DNA of 64,000 nt from Rhodobacteraceae bacterium SB2 (GTDB lineage Bacteria; Pseudomonadota; Alphaproteobacteria; Rhodobacterales; Rhodobacteraceae), in assembly GCA_001642945.1 (NCBI GenBank), contig LGRT01000034.1, positions 186,001 to 250,000 on the forward strand. The letters run 5' to 3'. The notes under the pieces are model-generated. The model had not been told where the DNA came from, did no database searches, and saw nothing but the letters and a program-made list of their open reading frames with translations. Of this stretch, positions 31,199 to 41,823 are shown piece by piece; position 1 is the stretch's first letter, and each line of letters starts with the position of its first letter. A program made the position numbers and the translations under genes.

Positions 31199-32098
31199 AT
31201 GAATTTTCGACAATTAGAAGCCTTTCGAGCTACAATGCGTTCCGGCTCAATCACGCGTGCGGCAGCGTCATTGAATCTTTCGCAACCCACGGTGAGCCGT
31301 CTGATCAAAGATCTCGAAGCTCAGATAGGCTTTGCCCTTTTTATCAAATTGGGGCGTGGCATCAGACCAACGACAGAGGGACAAAAATTTTATGAAGGCG
31401 TAGAGGCCACGTTTATGGGCCTTGACCGGCTGGATGATTTGGCCAAAACACTGGAAAGCAGTTCCGGGGGCACCCTTTCTTTGGGGGTCATCCCGTCGCT
31501 GGCAACGATAGAAATTCCAAGTGCTATAAACAGCCTATATCAGGCCCGACCTGACGTTAAATTACAGATCTACCTGCGTAACACACCTGCCATTATCGAA
31601 GCTATTCAATTGCAGCAATTGGATCTGGGCGTGATCAGCCGGCAACCGCCCTATAATGGCGTTGAAATCCTGTATCAAACCACCCTGCCCTATGTTTGCT
31701 TGGTTCCCGAAGAGCACGCTTTGGCTGGTTCTCAAACTGAGGTGAATTTGAACGACCTAGCGCAGACAGAAACCTTTATTACTTTTGGTGGCATTTTTCC
31801 CGAACAGATAGCCGGTCTGGATACGGCAACCATCGCCCATCTAAAGCAACGCTCGCGTTTATCGGCGGCCAATATGCCGATGGCCGCGGCATTGGCAAAA
31901 GAAACCGGCGCGCTGGCGATCGTTGACGTTTTATCCGCCGGAGTCGCTGTCGGAACAGGTGGTGTGACCAGCCTGCCACTGGTTCAAAACCTTGAATATC
32001 ATCTGGCTGTTGTCGCGCAAAATGCTGGTACATTGTCACGTCACGGGCAAGAATTGGCGGGCATTATTGCCAAGCGCTTAGACAGAATTCGATGTTAA
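31199..32098 (+). CDS. LysR-family transcriptional regulator
   Basis: 299 residues. N-terminal winged HTH (1-60: FRATMRSGSITRAAASLNLS, then QPTVSRLIKDLEAQIGFALF) and a periplasmic-binding-protein-like effector domain (90-295). It points toward, and overlaps by four bases at the stops, the DmdA-like gene, so it is convergent with the operon at 32095-36574. It is the nearest regulator for that operon, but divergent placement, the usual sign of a LysR target, is absent. Effector unknown. Confidence 0.9.
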   Translation: MNFRQLEAFRATMRSGSITRAAASLNLSQPTVSRLIKDLEAQIGFALFIKLGRGIRPTTEGQKFYEGVEATFMGLDRLDDLAKTLESSSGGTLSLGVIPSLATIEIPSAINSLYQARPDVKLQIYLRNTPAIIEAIQLQQLDLGVISRQPPYNGVEILYQTTLPYVCLVPEEHALAGSQTEVNLNDLAQTETFITFGGIFPEQIAGLDTATIAHLKQRSRLSAANMPMAAALAKETGALAIVDVLSAGVAVGTGGVTSLPLVQNLEYHLAVVAQNAGTLSRHGQELAGIIAKRLDRIRC

Positions 32099-33207
32099 GC
32101 AACCGGCAAATCTCTTATCCAGCCCGCGCGCGGCGGTTGATCTTCCACCCGCACCTCAACGTTTAAGCCCGCGCGCCAATAGCCTTTCTCAAGAAGAGAC
32201 AAACCTATATTGTTTTCTAAACGCGGCGAATATATCCCCGATGTGATTTCACCAATTTTTTGTCCCTCACAAATCACAGGCCATGGGATTGCGCAGGTTG
32301 GCACGGGGGGACCTTCAAATTCAACTGCATGGATCAACCGCTGAGGGCCTTGCGCAGCGATCGCGCATACCGCATCCCGGCCGATGTAATCAATAGAACC
32401 GCTCACATCACAAAATTTACCCAGCCCTATTTCAAATGGATTGTTTTGAAGGGTCATCTCATTGCCATATGAAAAAAGGCCGCCCTCAATCCGTTCGATC
32501 AGATTGGGGCAACCGGGGCGGATGTTATACGCTTGCCCTGCCCTCCAGAGCAAATCCCATAAACCGGGGCCATGCGCCGCCCCCTGCACATAAATCTCAA
32601 ACCCGCCTTGGCGCGAATACCCGGATCGGGCGATAAGCTGCTGGGTTCCCTCAACCTCAATCCACCCAAATTTGAAAAATCCAATATCGCGTATATCTGG
32701 CCCGAAAACCTCGGCCAGCAAAGCCTCAGCTTGCGGCCCCTGCACGGATAAAGGAAAAACATCAGGTTCATGAATATAGGCATTTAGCCCCCGGCCCAAG
32801 GCCAGCCCTTTGGCATAAAGCAGTAAATCGCTATCGGCGATTGACAGCCAAAACCGATCTTCGGCCAGCTTTAAAAGAACCGGATCATTTATCAGCCCCG
32901 CTTGGTCATCAATGATCGGCACATATAGACACTGCCCCACCTGTGCCTTGCTGATGTTGCGCGGGGTCATCAATTGCACCAAAGCGCCAGCATCTGGGCC
33001 CGATATTTCAACCTGCCTTTGGCAAGACACATCCCAAAGCTGCACATAGGCGCGCAAATGCCAATAATCTTCTTCAACACTGGTTTCAAAGGCTTTGGGC
33101 AAGAGCATATGGTTGACCACGGAAAACCCCCGAACCCCCAACGCCTCGACGCGATCCGTATAAGGTGTGCGACGAATACGCCGCGACATATTTAAGCCAT
33201 CAGCCAT
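32095..33207 (-). CDS. DmdA/GcvT-family folate-dependent methyltransferase (DMSP-demethylase-like)
   Basis: 370 residues, three GcvT-type domains. Motifs: YVQLWDVSCQRQVEISGP near residue 52, LMTPRNISKAQVGQC, LINDPVLLKL, CPNLIERIEGGLFSYGNEMT and NNPFEIGLGKFC near residue 255. These match DMSP demethylase DmdA, more of the SAR11 type as I recall it, better than glycine-cleavage T protein. One difference: ARSGYSRQGGFEIY has Tyr where DmdA sequences I remember have Trp (SGWSKQGG). It would pass a methyl group from a sulfonium or amine to tetrahydrofolate. Last gene of a four-gene operon with AGGAG before the ATG. Substrate uncertain. Confidence 0.8.
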   Translation of the reverse strand: MADGLNMSRRIRRTPYTDRVEALGVRGFSVVNHMLLPKAFETSVEEDYWHLRAYVQLWDVSCQRQVEISGPDAGALVQLMTPRNISKAQVGQCLYVPIIDDQAGLINDPVLLKLAEDRFWLSIADSDLLLYAKGLALGRGLNAYIHEPDVFPLSVQGPQAEALLAEVFGPDIRDIGFFKFGWIEVEGTQQLIARSGYSRQGGFEIYVQGAAHGPGLWDLLWRAGQAYNIRPGCPNLIERIEGGLFSYGNEMTLQNNPFEIGLGKFCDVSGSIDYIGRDAVCAIAAQGPQRLIHAVEFEGPPVPTCAIPWPVICEGQKIGEITSGIYSPRLENNIGLSLLEKGYWRAGLNVEVRVEDQPPRAGWIRDLPVA

Positions 33208-33210
33208 TGG

Positions 33211-33561
33211 TTAATCTCCTGACCACCAAACAGAGTAAGAATTCGGGTTGATAATGATCGGAATGTGGTAATGGCCTTCTCGATCAGGCATCGAAAAACG
33301 AAAGATGATTTCATCCATAATGTGCAGCCTTGCGCGAATGAGATCTTGGTTTTGCCAGTAATCTTTGGTTTCAAAGACCAGTTCATAGCGCGCCTCGGGG
33401 CTCAAAAGTCGCGCATCCAAGGTTTCTTTAAGCCGCCCGCCAGCATCCATCTGAGTGTCAAATAAACAATTTTGATTGGTCAGATTGATCAGGCGGACAG
33501 GAATAAACCCAGCATGTGTGCCATCAAATCCGTTCAGCGTGTGAGATGTTAAAACGGCCAT
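33211..33561 (-). CDS. 5-hydroxyisourate-hydrolase-like (transthyretin-related) protein, variant C-terminus
   Basis: 116 residues of the transthyretin-like fold. It begins LTSHTLNG (His of the active site), has GGRL where the catalytic Arg sits (near residue 40), and HYHIPIIINPNSY near the C-terminus. The family's diagnostic terminal YRGS is replaced by WWSGD. No other purine-degradation gene is present; it sits within an operon for a hydroxyacid oxidase, a ThDP enzyme and a DmdA-like enzyme, so hydrolysis of a different substrate is likely. Its start overlaps the previous stop by one base. Confidence 0.75.
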   Translation of the reverse strand: MAVLTSHTLNGFDGTHAGFIPVRLINLTNQNCLFDTQMDAGGRLKETLDARLLSPEARYELVFETKDYWQNQDLIRARLHIMDEIIFRFSMPDREGHYHIPIIINPNSYSVWWSGD

Positions 33562-35300
33562 TATTCAATCGATGCCTTATCACGTTTATCGGAGGTGGCT
33601 GCTACGATCGGGCTAATAACACCACGACATTTCACGTTGAGGCAAGCGGTCTTTCCGCTGGCCATCGCCCGCGCCAAAGCAGGGCCCAAAGCGGCACGAT
33701 CCTCGACCAATTCTCCATATCCCCCCATACCTTCAAAAAGGGTGTGAAACGGGATATCGCGAAAATCGGTGGCAAAATGGGAACCGTTCGCAAATAAACG
33801 CTCTTGCTGCTGGCTGATACAATCCAATCCGCCATTATTATCTATTACAACGGTGATCGGCAGCTTTTCCTGAAACGCCGCTTCGATGGATAAGCCACCC
33901 GACAAAAAGGCGCCATCCCCCGAAATTAACACGACATTACGTTCCGGATGCGCCGCTTTTGCTGATAGGGCAAAGCTTACCCCTACGCCCAGCAAGCTAT
34001 AATTCCCCGGGTGCAAAATACCGCCAAGTTTTTGACCACGCCACCCAGCCATATTAACAGCAATTTCCGACCAGAAATGCGTGTTGCCGCCGTCAAAAAC
34101 CAACCAATCCTGATCCTGTAACTGGCTTTGCACATCCAATGACAATTGCAGCGGGTGCATTTTGCGCCCCTGCGCTTGATCGAGTGTATTTTCTGTATCC
34201 AAATGCGCGTACCATTCATCAACCCATTTGGCGCGGCGCGCTTGCTGCAGCTCAAGCCAAGGGGCAAAATTAACTTTCACACCTGACAAAAGATCCAAAA
34301 ATGCAGCGGGGTCGCTGAGTATCAACCGATCTGCCGCGCGATTGTAATTCAGTTCTTCGTGGCTGCCATTGATACAGATCAAATGCGTTTCCGCTTTGAT
34401 AAAAGGCGGATTTCCGAAATTCATTTGATTGTCGAGCCGCCCTCCAATCATCAATATTATATCCGCGTCCTGCAACGCCTCTTTAGAGGGGTGATATTGG
34501 TGAAAATCTGCCAACCCCATATAGGTTTCACATTCCTCACCCAGTAGTTTCTGATGATAGGGAACGTTGAATACAGGAATTTTCAAAGCTTTCGACGCGT
34601 CTTCAAGGTTTTTTTCCGCGTGTGACCACCACACCCCGTGCCCTGCGATGATAACAGGCCGCTTTGCCATATTAAGCAGGTTTATCACATCTGCCATCAC
34701 CGCTGGTTCTGGCCAAGCTTTTGGCAAAGGCCTGTCGCTACGGTCAAATGGGCGCTCATGACGACCTGCATCCGCTGGAAAACTCGCAAACATTAAATCA
34801 ACCGGCAAGCTGATATGCACAGGCCCTGGATAACCAGTGGTTGCCGCTGTCCAGGCCCGATCGACAAATTCGCTGATCCGCTCACCATCGGTAATTTGAA
34901 CCGAATATTTCACCAATGGGGCCGCGATGGCGACATCATCAATTTCTTTAAATCCGCCTGCACCTTGGCGCTTCAGCGTCGAAGACCCAGTCACAAATAT
35001 CACCGGCGCTCGTTCGCCGCCAGCCTCCAACATGGCCGGCACCGCATTTGCGAAACCTTCCGGACCAACCAAGCAGACAGCCGGTTTGCGCGTGATACGC
35101 GTATGACCATCAGCCAAATGTCCAGCAACCTGTTCATGGGGGCAGTTGATCACAGGCATTTGACATTTCATAAACCCTTCGAGCGCAGGGTTACAAAAGC
35201 CACCAGCAAGCGTAAACACATGCTCAGCACCTTTTTCTTTGAGTGCACGGGCGAGTATCTCGCCACCACGCAGTTTTATCTCTTTGCTCTTTTCGTTCAC
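33561..35300 (-). CDS. Thiamine-diphosphate-dependent decarboxylase/lyase (acetolactate-synthase-like)
   Basis: 579 residues with the three ThDP-enzyme domains. The N-domain has the catalytic Glu in CPHEQVAGHLADG near residue 55; the C-domain has the ThDP/metal motif GDGAF...DNNGG near residue 445. It resembles acetolactate synthase, 2-hydroxyacyl-CoA lyase and benzoylformate decarboxylase but the exact branch is not clear. The start is GTG at 35300 with AGAAGG upstream. It follows the FMN hydroxyacid oxidase gene by 32 bases; oxidase plus decarboxylase recall the mandelate pathway (hydroxyacid to ketoacid to aldehyde). Confidence 0.85.
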   Translation of the reverse strand: MNEKSKEIKLRGGEILARALKEKGAEHVFTLAGGFCNPALEGFMKCQMPVINCPHEQVAGHLADGHTRITRKPAVCLVGPEGFANAVPAMLEAGGERAPVIFVTGSSTLKRQGAGGFKEIDDVAIAAPLVKYSVQITDGERISEFVDRAWTAATTGYPGPVHISLPVDLMFASFPADAGRHERPFDRSDRPLPKAWPEPAVMADVINLLNMAKRPVIIAGHGVWWSHAEKNLEDASKALKIPVFNVPYHQKLLGEECETYMGLADFHQYHPSKEALQDADIILMIGGRLDNQMNFGNPPFIKAETHLICINGSHEELNYNRAADRLILSDPAAFLDLLSGVKVNFAPWLELQQARRAKWVDEWYAHLDTENTLDQAQGRKMHPLQLSLDVQSQLQDQDWLVFDGGNTHFWSEIAVNMAGWRGQKLGGILHPGNYSLLGVGVSFALSAKAAHPERNVVLISGDGAFLSGGLSIEAAFQEKLPITVVIDNNGGLDCISQQQERLFANGSHFATDFRDIPFHTLFEGMGGYGELVEDRAALGPALARAMASGKTACLNVKCRGVISPIVAATSDKRDKASIE

Positions 35301-35332
35301 AGGATCTTCACCTTCTTACCCATAAAACCCAC

Positions 35333-36574
35333 CTAATCTAGCAGGGCATGATTATTTTTTACGATCATCGCAGGCGTCAAATCGGATATGTTTCGCGCAC
35401 CCAATTGTGCCATCGCAGCAGAAACATCATAGGCCAAACCGCTGAACAACGCGTCCAGCCCCCGCGCACCATCAGCCGCCAACGCGTAAAGCACCGGACG
35501 GCCCAACATCACCATATTGGCGCCACAAACCAAGGCCTTCACGATATCTTCGCCATTGCGAACGCCGCTATCAATAAGCAACGGATAATCCGGACCAAGC
35601 GCTTGCCGGATCAATGGTAACACTGCAATTGACGCCGGCGCGCTGTCCAACTGGCGCCCCCCATGCGTGGAAATATAAATCGCATCTGCGCCGCACTCTT
35701 GCACCTGCAACGCGTCGGGCACCGAGGTAATTCCTTTGACCACCAGCTTGCCCGGCCACAATTCACGCAATCGTTTCAAAAATTCCCAATCCGCTAAAGC
35801 GCGGCTTGCATCTCGATCAAAACCATCTCCATTATCCGGAAAGTTCAGGGGTTTGGGCACGCCGTTTGCCAAAGTTGCGAGACTCCACCTTGGATGGGTT
35901 GCGAAATCAAAAAATTGTTTTGACCTCATCCGAAAGGGCATTTTAAACCCATTCGCAACATCGCGCAAACGCCGGCTCACTTGAGGAACATCCACCGTGA
36001 ATACCAAGGTTGAATATCCGGCATTTTGGGCCCTTCGCACCAAAGAAAGCGTATGATCGAGCGGCGGTGTTACATAAAGCTGAAACCATGCATAAGTACC
36101 GGCCCATTTGCGCATATCCTCGAGGCGGCTAGACGCTGCAGATGACAATCCCACCGGAATCTGCGCAGTTTTCGCAACTTGCCCCATTATTTGGTCCGCC
36201 TTGGGATGCGAAAGATTACACATTCCCATCGGCGCGATTCCAAAGGGCAGCTGAAACGATTGATCGATAAATTTTGTGGTTAGGTTTCTGGGGTCAACCT
36301 GGCGTAAAACACGTGATTGCAGTTGAATATCACCAAATGCCTGTTTATTGCGTACCTTGCCAATTTCGCGCCCCGCCGCTCCATCAATAAAGTCAAAAAT
36401 AAGTTTGGGAAGCCGCTTTTTGGCCAGAAAGCGCGCATGAGTTGCGTCAATGACGCAGGGCGCGCCCGATTTGATTGAACTTTCGTAAGACACATATCCC
36501 CCAACGCCTTTGCAAAAGGGGATACTAAAGCCGCTAGGCAAAAACAATTCGCTTTTATTTTGCCATTCATACAT
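35333..36574 (-). CDS. FMN-dependent 2-hydroxyacid oxidase/dehydrogenase
   Basis: 413 residues. The (S)-2-hydroxyacid oxidase barrel: FDFIDGAAG, FGIAPMGMCNL, WFQLYVTPP, the flavin-contacting Lys in LVVKGITS, the catalytic His and Arg in THGGRQLDSA near residue 300, and the FMN-phosphate segment DSGVRNGEDIVKAL. It oxidises a 2-hydroxy acid to a 2-oxo acid. The first 27 residues are unlike the family; an alternative GTG at 36493 would give a conventional N-terminus. First gene of the operon; the annotated ATG lies inside an inverted repeat at 36565-36587. Confidence 0.9.
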   Translation of the reverse strand: MYEWQNKSELFLPSGFSIPFCKGVGGYVSYESSIKSGAPCVIDATHARFLAKKRLPKLIFDFIDGAAGREIGKVRNKQAFGDIQLQSRVLRQVDPRNLTTKFIDQSFQLPFGIAPMGMCNLSHPKADQIMGQVAKTAQIPVGLSSAASSRLEDMRKWAGTYAWFQLYVTPPLDHTLSLVRRAQNAGYSTLVFTVDVPQVSRRLRDVANGFKMPFRMRSKQFFDFATHPRWSLATLANGVPKPLNFPDNGDGFDRDASRALADWEFLKRLRELWPGKLVVKGITSVPDALQVQECGADAIYISTHGGRQLDSAPASIAVLPLIRQALGPDYPLLIDSGVRNGEDIVKALVCGANMVMLGRPVLYALAADGARGLDALFSGLAYDVSAAMAQLGARNISDLTPAMIVKNNHALLD

Positions 36575-36766: not shown

Positions 36767-36979
36767 ATGAATAAAGTCATAACGATCACATGCATCGTAC
36801 TTTTTTGCGCCATTGCCGCAAGCGCACAAACGGTGCCATCGACGCAAAATGGTAAAACAAATTTGGAAAATGCAACGTCAAATTTAGGCCCCGCGTCGAA
36901 ATTAACAGGCAGTTTTTTATTTATAGCCCTGTTATCGTTAATCGGCGGCAGCAGTTCAAGCTCTGCTTCCGGCTCATGA
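36767..36979 (+). CDS. Small exported serine-tailed protein
   Basis: 70 residues from the ATG at 36767. A signal peptide (MNKVITITCIVLFCAIAASAQ) precedes a short polar part, a second hydrophobic stretch (GSFLFIALLSLIGG) and a Ser/Gly tail (SSSSSASGS). No family is recognised; such short proteins may be membrane-attached. The 3' end overlaps the convergent IalB stop by 6 bases. No ribosome site is obvious, so confidence is moderate. Confidence 0.45.
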   Translation: MNKVITITCIVLFCAIAASAQTVPSTQNGKTNLENATSNLGPASKLTGSFLFIALLSLIGGSSSSSASGS

Positions 36980-37528
36980 CTTTATCGGGTTAAGTTTTGC
37001 TATTGCCCGTGAAAACCCTTTGAGACTTACCTTTGCCAAGATTGAGTCTTCGTCATTTAGCATTCTAAACCGCAAAGAAAACTCACGGTTTTTCTTCATG
37101 CTCTCAATAAGTGGTTCATCCAACTCGAAAGAGACCAAACACCCCTGAGAAACACAGGTGACAAAACGGTAGGTTTTTGGATCAATATTTTCCGATGACA
37201 TCTCTAAGCCAAATGCCAGATCTATTTGAAGCGGAAGCAGCACCTCAAAGATCATTTATTCCTGTTTCAACGCAATTGTAATCATTGAAAAGGCCCGTTT
37301 TTCTCCAGTATTTTCACGTAAGGTTTGTTGTAATATGCAAGTTTCAATTTCCTGCTCAAGCGTGCAAATACTTTCCCAAAAATCATGCTGTGTGCGCGTT
37401 ATAGAGATATCATTCACCTCTCCTTCGGGTTCTTGCGAAGCAACAGAAGCCGGGCTAAGCCCGAACACACTTATCCAAAAACAACATGACAAAACCGAAA
37501 AAATAAAACTGCGTCGAATGTTAGACAT
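36974..37528 (-). pseudogene. Invasion-associated locus B (IalB)-family gene with an in-frame TAA
   Basis: Two frames that abut in the same phase together make one IalB-type protein of about 184 residues. The first part (ATG at 37528, AAAGGTGA 6 bases upstream) gives a signal peptide and WESICTLEQEIETCILQQTL. The second gives VLLPLQIDLAFGLEM, FVTCVSQGCLVSFELDE and VSLKGFSRAIAKL. Between them is TAA (37256-37258) immediately followed by ATG. IalB proteins are normally continuous here (hydrophobic strand then LPLGI/LG-type turn). So it is a nonsense pseudogene, a sequencing error, or a gene relying on read-through or re-initiation. The four Cys typical of the family are present across the two parts. 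Confidence 0.8.
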
Positions 37529-37673
37529 TTTCAAATCACCTTTATTAAAAATTTATGTTTACGGAAGTCCAAAACTGTGGATCACGGTTAGAAGGATCCA
37601 CCGAGGAGGCTGCCATACATATGCTTTACCTTCACTTTTAATTTGAAAAGATCTGTCAGTGTGACGGCAAATT

Positions 37674-39617: not shown

Positions 39618-41823
39618 ATGACCATATGGCGCAATTTAAATATAGGCACGAAAGTATTAACCGCGCTTTTGCCGCTTATCTTACTTTCCATCGCTTTAGT
39701 ATCATCAATATCAATCCTAATTGCTCAACGCGAACTTGAAGAGCAAGCCTTCAACAAACTCATCGCGACGCGCGAGATAAAAGCGACCCAGATCGAAAAT
39801 TACTTTTCCCAGATCAGGCATCAAATTGAAACTTTTTCGGAAAACCATATGGTTATTTCAGCGATGAAGGATTTCGCAGCAGCGTTTAAAACAATTTTTG
39901 AAGAGCGCAACCTTACACCGGAAGCTGAAGCAGCGCTGCAAACCCGCGTCGGGGAATATTACCAAGGGAATTTTTTACCAAAACTTGCTGATAATTCACA
40001 AATCACGCCTCATTTCACCGATTATTTTCCAAACGAAGAAAGCACTCAGATTCTACAGGATTTATATATTGCAAATAATCCCAATCAACTGGGGTCAAAA
40101 CATAAGCTTGCTCGTGCAAGCGACAACAGCCGGTACAGTGACCATCATGCGCGCTATCACCCGGTCTTGCGAAATTTTCTAAAAAAAATTCGGCTATTAC
40201 GACATTTTTCTAATTGATATTGATACGGGGCATATCGTGTATTCTGTGTTTAAAGAAGCCGATTATGCCACCTCGTTGCTCACAGGACCCTATGCCAACA
40301 GCAATTTGGGGAAAGCCTTTCAAATTGCCAGAACAGCCAAAGCGCCAAGCTTTACATATTTGATTGATTTCTCGCCATATGCGCCCTCTTACAACGCCCC
40401 GGCTTCCTTCATTGTCTCACCGATATTTGAGCAGGATAAATTATTGGGTGTTGCGGCGTTTCAAATGCCGGTGGATCAGATCAACAATATTATGACCAAC
40501 CACCAAAATTGGCGGGATATAGGTTTGGGGGAAAGCGGCGAAACCTATATGGTCGGTTCGGATCTTACGCTTAAAAATGAATCCCGCTTCTTAATTGAAG
40601 ATCCCTCTGGTTACCTCGCACAAATGAAAAATCTTGGAATGGAGCAAAATTTACTGCGTGAAATTGAAAAGTCAGGGAGCGTCATTGGCCGCCAAAAAGT
40701 GAATACAACCGCCTCGCAAATGGCCTTGAAGGGTCAAACCGCATCCTTAGTTATAAAAGATTATCGAAACATTTCTGTATTATCAGCGTTCAAACCCTTG
40801 GCGATTAAGGATGTAGATTGGGCAATTTTAAGCGAAATTGATGAAGCCGAAGCTTTTGCGGCAACGCAGAACATGCGCACTACTATTTTAATATTTGTCG
40901 CACTGATCATTGCCGTCATCGCCGCTGTGATCGTTATATTTTCGCGGCAAGTGATTTCTAAACCCATCAACCAAATGCTGGATGCTGTCGAAAACCTTCG
41001 TGCCGGTAAAGGGGATTTAACACTCAGACTGCCCGATTTTGGTAGCAATGAAATTGGCCAAACAGCTGCCTCTTTAAACGGATTTATTCAGCGCATTCAG
41101 TTGATCATGCAGGATATAAAAACCGCTGTAACATCGGTTTCAACGGCGTCGTTGCAATTGAATGCCACCGCGGAAAGTTTTAAAATCAACGCGGGAACGC
41201 AGGCAGGTTCCATTGAGGAAACCAGCGCTGCACTAACGCAAATCAGCGTCTCGATCACCCAAAACGCTGATAATGCCCAATCGACCAAGACGCTTGCCTC
41301 GCAGGCGGCCTCCTCAACCACAGAAGGCAGCGAAGCGGTGAAGCAGACCGTTTTGGCAATGAAAGAAATTGCGGGTAAGGTGACCTTGATTCAGGATTTT
41401 GCTTACCAAACGGATCTGCTGGCTTTGAATGCGATGATCGAAGCGGCCCGCGTGGGAGAGGCCGGAAATGGGTTTGCGGTTGTGGCAGACTCGGTCCGAA
41501 GTTTGGCCGAAGACAGTCAGATTGCGGCTAAAGAAATCAGTGACCTCGCTGAAAATAGCCTGCAGATCGCAGAAGAAGCGGGCCAATTGGTCGAAGGCGT
41601 GGTGCCCAATATTCAAGATACCGCACAATTAGTTCAAGAAATTGCCTCGGCCTCAGAAGAGCAAGCAAAAGGGGTCACCGAAATAAATGAAGCGATGAAA
41701 AAACTTGACGGCGCGGCAAGCGAAAGCAGCGCCGCATCAACGGAATTGGCCGCTACCTCCGATGAATTCAACAAAATGGTGGAAAAAATTGAAAGCCAAG
41801 TTTCAAAGTTCAAAAGTGAATAA
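39618..41823 (+). pseudogene. Methyl-accepting chemotaxis protein split at an A8 tract
   Basis: The two overlapping parts form a 734-residue chemoreceptor. The 5' part: N-terminal membrane helix (about 13-34) and the start of a large periplasmic sensor, ending [11 protein letters not shown]. The 3' part continues [15 protein letters not shown] in the +1 frame, then a second membrane helix ([19 protein letters not shown]), HAMP ([17 protein letters not shown]) and signalling domain with [21 protein letters not shown]. The break is at the eight A's 40181-40188; seven would keep the frame (CTA AAA AAA TTC). It may be a real frameshift, phase variation, transcriptional slippage, or an assembly error. 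Everything else is intact. Confidence 0.85.

Follow-up and report, generated by a model that had tools for sequence, protein, structure and literature searches.

We analysed a 64,000-nucleotide stretch of contig LGRT01000034.1 of Rhodobacteraceae bacterium SB2 (positions 186,001–250,000, hereafter the window; the source genome comprises 3,636,317 bases in 38 contigs), and describe here four consecutive minus-strand open reading frames (ORFs) at window positions 32095–36574. In order, these encode an FMN-dependent 2-hydroxyacid oxidase or dehydrogenase (HAO), a thiamine diphosphate-dependent enzyme (ThDP), a transthyretin/5-hydroxyisourate (HIU) hydrolase-like protein (TTR) and a diverged member of the DmdA family of tetrahydrofolate (THF)-dependent sulfonium demethylases. 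That the four form a real and conserved module is well supported. A module built round a diverged DmdA is apparently undescribed: the open literature that we searched yielded no description of the four-gene set, and no paper on the methylthio chemistry considered below. As to its role, our judgement is evenly balanced on whether it serves to break down a dimethylsulfonio or methylthio 2-hydroxy acid. More tentatively, we put forward 4-dimethylsulfonio-2-hydroxybutyrate (DMSHB) itself as the leading candidate substrate.

HAO is encoded by the first gene (35333–36574, 413 aa), whose start codon is uncertain, the first 20–49 residues being unaligned in nine complete orthologues from outside the genus. 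It is followed by the genes for ThDP (33561–35300, 579 aa, GTG start), an enzyme of the acetolactate synthase/2-hydroxyacyl-CoA lyase branch, TTR (33211–33561, 116 aa) and DmdA (32095–33207, 370 aa). The Pfam matches (FMN_dh, PF01070, 380.6 bits; TPP_enzyme N, M and C, PF02776, PF00205 and PF02775; Transthyretin, PF00576, 61.3 bits; GCV_T/GCV_T_C) all exceed their gathering scores. Thirty-two bases separate HAO from ThDP and three separate TTR from DmdA, and ThDP and TTR overlap by one base; because of these junctions and the conserved gene order, the four genes are probably co-transcribed as an operon. The coordinates, junctions and family identities given in the initial annotation of this DNA were all confirmed, by the ORF list and by Pfam and NCBIfam.

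To follow the unit in other organisms, named genomes were scanned by peptide patterns, giving 575 stretches, of which 521 encode a ThDP relative at E 1e-3; we kept the 80 that matched best. Locus counts with denominators of 79, 71, 68 or 61 refer to these best 80 of 521 only, at loci with enough flank and by centre distances, and neighbour-gene counts out of 43 refer to loci flanked by 6 kb or more at both ends (L and G numbers are our handles for loci and genomes). TTR comes directly after ThDP at 72 of 79 loci, a DmdA-like gene lies downstream of ThDP at 57 of 71 and HAO lies upstream at 51 of 68. Across 61 loci, all four genes stand in order at 40, with ThDP-TTR-DmdA at eight, HAO-ThDP-TTR at five, ThDP alone at five and ThDP-TTR at three. 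The same order is seen at ThDP-orthologue loci of the same family, of other families of the class and of gammaproteobacteria; record titles among the best 80 name Rhodobacteraceae, SAR116, Rhizobiaceae-type genera, Kiloniella, Pelagibius, Granulosicoccaceae, Oceanospirillaceae and others, mostly marine lineages by name. The initial annotation had suggested searching other genomes for this gene order and took dispersed relatives as a point against a common pathway; the genes proved to be co-located, and the conserved order also led us to reject chance as the reason for their togetherness.

At 16 loci with flanks, the genes beside ThDP include a DmdA orthologue in 12 cases, HAO in 12 and TTR in 15; L033, L034 and L036 have ThDP-TTR only and L035 has only a ThDP relative of 36% identity. 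An additional DmdA relative (29%) is present at L040. The ThDP orthologue itself is uncommon and scattered, occurring in six of 147 relatives (E 1e-100), seven of 390 genomes of the order (E 1e-90; one of these, G361, is 36% identical) and six of 385 genomes of the class (E 1e-90), with the source genome included each time. Plasmid records gave no match to ThDP at E 1e-60. Carriers that can be cultured include Planktotalea frisia (L088) and Nioella (L119). In two Granulosicoccaceae genomes ThDP stands with TctCA, and TTR and DmdA form a pair at another place; in one of the two genomes this pair lies behind SBP56 and genes resembling a CoA-binding protein and a ferredoxin.

Two further loci are recorded here as observations in their own right. 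A contig labelled Sulfurimonas (L117) bears the unit together with a second DmdA; this is possibly a binning error, since the label stands alone among alpha- and gammaproteobacterial records. At L035 (G361:C24:63648-65372), the 36% identical ThDP relative is flanked on both sides by genes that by eye resemble class III aminotransferases, and agmatinase-like and Opp-type transporter genes lie close by; it represents another uncharacterized ThDP subfamily.

The DmdA of the unit scores 538.7 bits against the NCBIfam model for dimethylsulfoniopropionate (DMSP) demethylase (NF009133; cut-off 410). The description of this protein as 'DmdA-like' in the initial annotation was right in that it lies inside the DmdA clade, and understated how close it is. 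In a tree of 51 rows (short search, SH-aLRT support, no bootstrap), 32 of the 33 rows labelled as operon copies form one group (support 97). This group, the SAR11 DmdA of PDB 3TFH and an acuI-linked group (97; five of its eight rows have an acuI-like neighbour) share a larger clade (99), from which paralogues of about 40% identity and L068 are excluded. The 33rd operon-labelled row is the second, non-operon copy of L117, which lies inside the larger clade and outside the operon group. Classification as a distant GcvT relative was rejected on both the NCBIfam score and the tree position. The source genome has a second DmdA, 51% identical, directly before a gene that by eye resembles acuI; dmdA followed by acuI is the usual roseobacter arrangement, according to two papers (PMC5395565, PMC3338564).

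Nine alignment columns differ consistently between the operon branch and both reference groups (10 and two rows): Y29F, T30S, Y32V, E63Q, I121L, V207L, V229I, D250E and I297F in 3TFH numbering. A further 91 columns are conserved across all three groups. The operon branch does not keep every residue conserved in both known DmdA groups, Y32V and D250E being found in 32 of 32 rows. In a larger alignment of 124 rows, the 70 labelled as operon copies comprise 67 with V32 and Q63, two with V32 and E63, and one, the L117 copy, with Y32 and Q63. The 54 other rows comprise 38 with Y32 and E63, two with Y32 and Q63, and 14 with V32 and Q63; every one of these 14 belongs to a ThDP carrier, and several are duplicate entries of operon genes. 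Among the rows printed with position 250, which do not include the 67 operon rows, D250 accompanies every Y32 and E250 every V32, and in the smaller set E250 was present in all 32. Given this distribution, V32 and E250 mark the operon branch and Q63 alone does not. The V32/E250 pair is, judged from these alignments, an easy screen for separating the DmdA branches.

A Trp at the position of 3TFH W197 was considered as a mark of DMSP specificity and rejected, as the acuI-linked rows too have Tyr there; from the spacing, W197 appears to be the 'W171' of PMC7487153. DmdA relatives of about 40% identity (L055, L067, L069, L070 and similar) make up a third group, which has Y32 and D250 and mostly Trp at W197. 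By eye, an enoyl-CoA-hydratase-like gene stands beside the L067 copy and an acyl-CoA-synthetase-like gene beside the L055 copy.

We quantified the linkage of the diverged DmdA to ThDP with a threshold of at least 56% DmdA identity, which was our choice; in these samples, any check of the diagnostic residues was confined to sequences at or above it. A DmdA match at E 1e-95 is present in 198 of the 390 genomes of the order sample; four have one at or above the threshold, and all four are ThDP carriers. Six of the 385 genomes of the class sample pass the threshold. Five of these carry ThDP, and the sixth (G661, 59% identity) has no ThDP match at E 1e-90. Its DmdA has Y32, E63 and D250, and the next gene is by eye acyl-CoA-synthetase-like, so we classed this DmdA as canonical. 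After this check, the diverged DmdA at or above the threshold is found only in ThDP carriers (4/4 and 5/5). ThDP carriers without it are G278 and G418 in the order sample and G814 in the class sample. The number of independent linkage events is smaller than these counts, since G000 is in both samples and several carriers are congeners.

None of the other three proteins passes any NCBIfam equivalog cut-off. HAO can be placed among the FMN 2-hydroxyacid oxidases by its PF01070 score and its catalytic-type residues; Y167, D195, R202, K280, H304 and R307 are invariant in 57 of 57 aligned orthologues, and Phe62 is present in 55. ThDP has an invariant Glu56 and GDG...NN cofactor motif (11/11) and an invariant C-terminus of its own; its best NCBIfam score is 261 bits against a cut-off of 587, and we propose that it may act as a 2-oxo acid decarboxylase. 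TTR falls short of the HIU hydrolase model (TIGR02962, 59.6 against 87.45). Its H7, R43, H99, S114, H16 and W112 are invariant in 68 of 68 sequences, and H7, R43 and H99 align with three solved relatives, the reference sequences used ending before their own Ser. We take the His, Arg, His and C-terminal Ser to be the catalytic residues of HIU hydrolase. Membership of well-characterized clades with unrelated roles, which the initial annotation had named as a point against its proposal, was not what we found: HAO, ThDP and TTR lie under all equivalog cut-offs, and DmdA is close to the two known groups yet distinct from them.

How do these features bear on the substrate? The place of the operon DmdA in one clade with the SAR11 and acuI-linked enzymes argues for a sulfonium compound, and the nine changed columns, together with the separate canonical dmdA-acuI pair in the source genome, argue that this compound is not DMSP. 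The main reason for a 2-hydroxy/2-oxo acid pair is that unrelated families of 2-hydroxy-acid oxidoreductases are found beside ThDP-TTR. In L089 and beside the first of the ThDP copies in L108, where ThDP-TTR lacks the FMN oxidase, there is a GlcD-type FAD oxidase, unrelated to HAO; this supports the sequence from 2-hydroxy acid to 2-oxo acid to ThDP reaction set out in the initial annotation. PanE-type genes are present at eight of 43 loci, Ldh2-type genes at five, and one D-2-hydroxyacid dehydrogenase gene at L113. The substitution is not universal, several HAO-less loci having no such oxidoreductase near. Neighbours linked to sulfur or methyl groups include a Cys/Met PLP enzyme that follows DmdA after 30 bases (L137), a gene of the homocysteine S-methyltransferase family that, like a second GcvT-like gene, precedes HAO on the same strand (L040), a DMSP_lyase-family cupin convergent on DmdA (L088, L096 and L097; 52.7 bits against a cut-off of 27 in L088 and L096), and SBP56 genes near 10 of 43 loci. 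A sulfonium or methylthio 2-hydroxy acid is the best fit to the DmdA tree and its altered residues, to the partners that act on 2-hydroxy acids and to the sulfur-linked neighbours.

In such a pathway, DmdA would transfer one S-methyl group to THF, the FMN oxidase would convert the 2-hydroxy acid to the 2-oxo acid, ThDP would decarboxylate the latter to a product one carbon shorter, and TTR would catalyse some hydrolytic or ring-opening step. DMSHB, an intermediate in the synthesis of the abundant algal metabolite DMSP, is, to our knowledge, the simplest known marine compound of the dimethylsulfonio or methylthio 2-hydroxy acid type. It was a speculative candidate in the initial annotation; it is compatible with our data and now leads, and no computed result names it, or any other compound, as the substrate. 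For the substrate, order of steps and products we infer a scheme in which DMSHB and THF would give 4-methylthio-2-hydroxybutyrate, then 4-methylthio-2-oxobutyrate, then methional, which would enter methanethiol metabolism. The methionine hydroxy analogue is a substrate of hydroxyacid oxidases, and methional is formed from 4-methylthio-2-oxobutyrate by 2-oxo acid decarboxylases. We suggest, as a tentative proposal, that the operon could be a dedicated marine DMSHB pathway, pairing a second type of sulfonium demethylase, derived from DmdA and mistaken for it, with FMN-oxidase/ThDP oxidative decarboxylation of DMSHB or of its demethylated acid.

Several observations weigh against the reading of the unit as a module for a sulfonium or methylthio 2-hydroxy acid, beyond the fact that no result names the substrate. 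The best solved relatives of ThDP are 2-hydroxyacyl-CoA lyase and oxalyl-CoA decarboxylase, not simple decarboxylases. DmdA is missing downstream at 14 of 71 loci, and some of the 14 genomes reached via DmdA-less loci have only DmdA relatives of about 40–44% identity, so the ThDP-TTR core can function without a near DmdA. MttB-like genes at 11 of 43 loci are a possible pointer to nitrogen compounds. The DMSP_lyase cupin occurs in one lineage only and, with many lineages examined, could be there by chance; sequence search found none beside the unit at the other loci searched. SBP56 of the MtoX clade is a methanethiol oxidase (PMC5739008); identity of the SBP56 neighbour with known MtoX was rejected, since it scores 157.8 against a cut-off of 650 and belongs to another subfamily. 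In the genus of Labrenzia sp. DG1229, ThDP is found in only two of 45 genomes, so the unit is unlikely to account for the DMSHB decarboxylation reported for L. aggregata.

The unit in the window contains no dmdB, dmdC or dmdD. The acyl-CoA dehydrogenase and enoyl-CoA hydratase genes near related loci are probably not DmdC and DmdD, judged from the best hits of the L089 copies, which are other proteins, and not from direct comparison to DmdC/DmdD references. The TRAP and Opp binding proteins gave no ligand guess, the nearest solved chains being too distant.

Of the alternatives, the one that survives best, which we nevertheless regard as unlikely, is that DmdA is an ordinary DMSP demethylase and that HAO, ThDP and TTR make DMSP from DMSHB or another precursor, after which DmdA or a DMSP lyase degrades it. 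This would agree with the NF009133 score, with the cupin adjoining DmdA in L088, L096 and L097, and with three genomes (G663, G829 and G752, which we take to belong to SAR116) in which no DmdA relative other than the operon copy exceeds 45% identity. PF16867 (DMSP_lyase) matches were also found in 20 of the 34 genome handles with ThDP (G353 and G850 are one genome, which makes 19 of 33) against none of 14 controls, a comparison for which the baseline of relatives was not taken. However, Y32 and D250, present in all 40 Y32 rows outside the operon set, are altered in the operon branch, and the source genome already has a canonical dmdA-acuI pair.

A second alternative, to which we attach little probability, takes ThDP as a 2-hydroxyacyl-CoA lyase or carboligase in a dioxygenase-fed route resembling alpha-oxidation, with HAO and DmdA on side steps. 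Its best solved relatives would fit this, as would PhyH proteins directly upstream of ThDP in L079, TauD proteins near ThDP in L089, L102 and L108, and the recurrence nearby of acyl-CoA dehydrogenase, enoyl-CoA hydratase, thiolase and CoA_binding_2 genes. By contrast, at 51 of 68 loci ThDP has HAO immediately upstream, which suits a free 2-oxo acid, and the four-gene unit has neither a CoA ligase nor a dioxygenase. It is a little more doubtful still that the same chemistry is applied to a nitrogen betaine, an N-methylated 2-hydroxy acid, with DmdA shifted from sulfonium to ammonium. GcvT relatives do act on nitrogen compounds, and the MttB-like genes point the same way (that of L028 scores 387 bits with Pfam MTTB and is under the TIGR02369 cut-off); against this, DmdA stands between two sulfonium demethylase groups in the tree and has sulfur-linked neighbours in several lineages. 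Least probable is that four neighbours have separate roles, for example HAO-ThDP-TTR acting on a common hydroxy acid with DmdA only for methyl-THF supply. The DmdA-less and HAO-less architectures and the TTR-DmdA pairs away from ThDP in Granulosicoccaceae speak for this; the complete ordered set at 40 of 61 loci and the finding of the diverged DmdA only in ThDP carriers speak against it.

The surroundings of the unit show further recurring patterns. A block of MttB-like, PanE-like, FAH-like, peptidase-S51 and Opp-type transporter genes stands beside it at L028, L131, L139, L148 and others, and L187 has DmdA, PanE and Opp genes in a row. SBP56, a 2Fe-2S ferredoxin and CoA_binding_2 are often together near ThDP or TTR-DmdA (L089, L131, L139, L144, L150, L185 and others), frequently with acyl-CoA dehydrogenase, enoyl-CoA hydratase and thiolase genes; this set is possibly a new SBP56 pathway. 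By eye, sulfatase-like genes lie near the unit in L112, L126 and L132, and hydantoinase-like genes in L112 and L126. In the window, a plus-strand gene for a LysR-family protein (31199–32098; PF00126 and PF03466) is convergent to the unit and shares four bases with the end of the DmdA gene. This LysR-family protein is a probable regulator of the unit; its homologue adjoins the unit at many loci, on either side. Also in the window, a stop codon splits one frame of an IalB-family gene (36974–37534, minus strand) into two ORFs where the same-genus locus L025 has a single ORF of 186 aa, and a methyl-accepting chemotaxis-like gene (39618–41823, plus strand) consists of two ORFs in different frames (39618–40217 and 40237–41823), by eye resembling a frameshift.

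The gene dmdA is a main marker of marine DMSP demethylation. If the ThDP-linked branch acts on another sulfonium, dmdA counts would overstate DMSP demethylation for its carriers. Three papers on SAR116 assign dmdA to DMSP demethylation from genomes, with results that disagree: dmdABC is placed across the clade except subclade Ib.III (PMC12262181), dmdA is found only in the LGC2 subgroup, with isolates relying on DMSP lyase (PMC8547437), and dmdA subclade B/3 is represented by 'Ca. Puniceispirillum marinum' (PMC6309047). The literature consulted contained no assay of the operon DmdA branch. If the substrate is DMSHB, the unit would give this compound, which may be a prominent one in seawater in its own right, a route of turnover, and it would supply candidate enzymes for a step that is said to be poorly known (PMC11306096).

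According to the same paper, no enzyme but DsyGD is known to have DMSHB decarboxylase activity, others are unidentified, and R. pomeroyi DSS-3 is reported to lack this activity (PMC11306096). DsyGD would share DMSHB as a substrate with the unit if our leading candidate is right (PMC11306096); it differs in that its DsyD part, which serves DMSP synthesis, resembles ureidoglycolate lyase and has no relation to HAO or ThDP. With the 2-hydroxyacyl-CoA lyase, oxalyl-CoA decarboxylase and acetolactate synthase branch, ThDP has domain order and cofactor motifs in common, whereas its equivalog scores lie far under the cut-offs and its C-terminus is its own; 5-guanidino-2-oxopentanoate decarboxylase, which acts on a cationic 2-oxo acid, belongs to this broad branch as well (170 bits against a cut-off of 500). 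HAO shares PF01070 and the catalytic-type residues with lactate oxidase, mandelate dehydrogenase and glycolate oxidase, but it matches no NCBIfam equivalog and, aligned by eye, has Phe (55/57) at the position that we take to be Tyr24 of glycolate oxidase. TTR has the fold family of HIU hydrolase (UraH/PucM), the aligned His, Arg and His and a conserved C-terminal Ser. HIU hydrolases end in YRGS, whereas TTR ends in W-x-S, has an invariant His16 where three references have Pro and scores under the TIGR02962 cut-off. Finally, the operon DmdA resembles the SAR11 and roseobacter enzymes in its clade, domains, NCBIfam model and 91 shared columns, and differs from them in forming its own branch, in nine changed columns and in standing beside HAO-ThDP-TTR rather than acuI.

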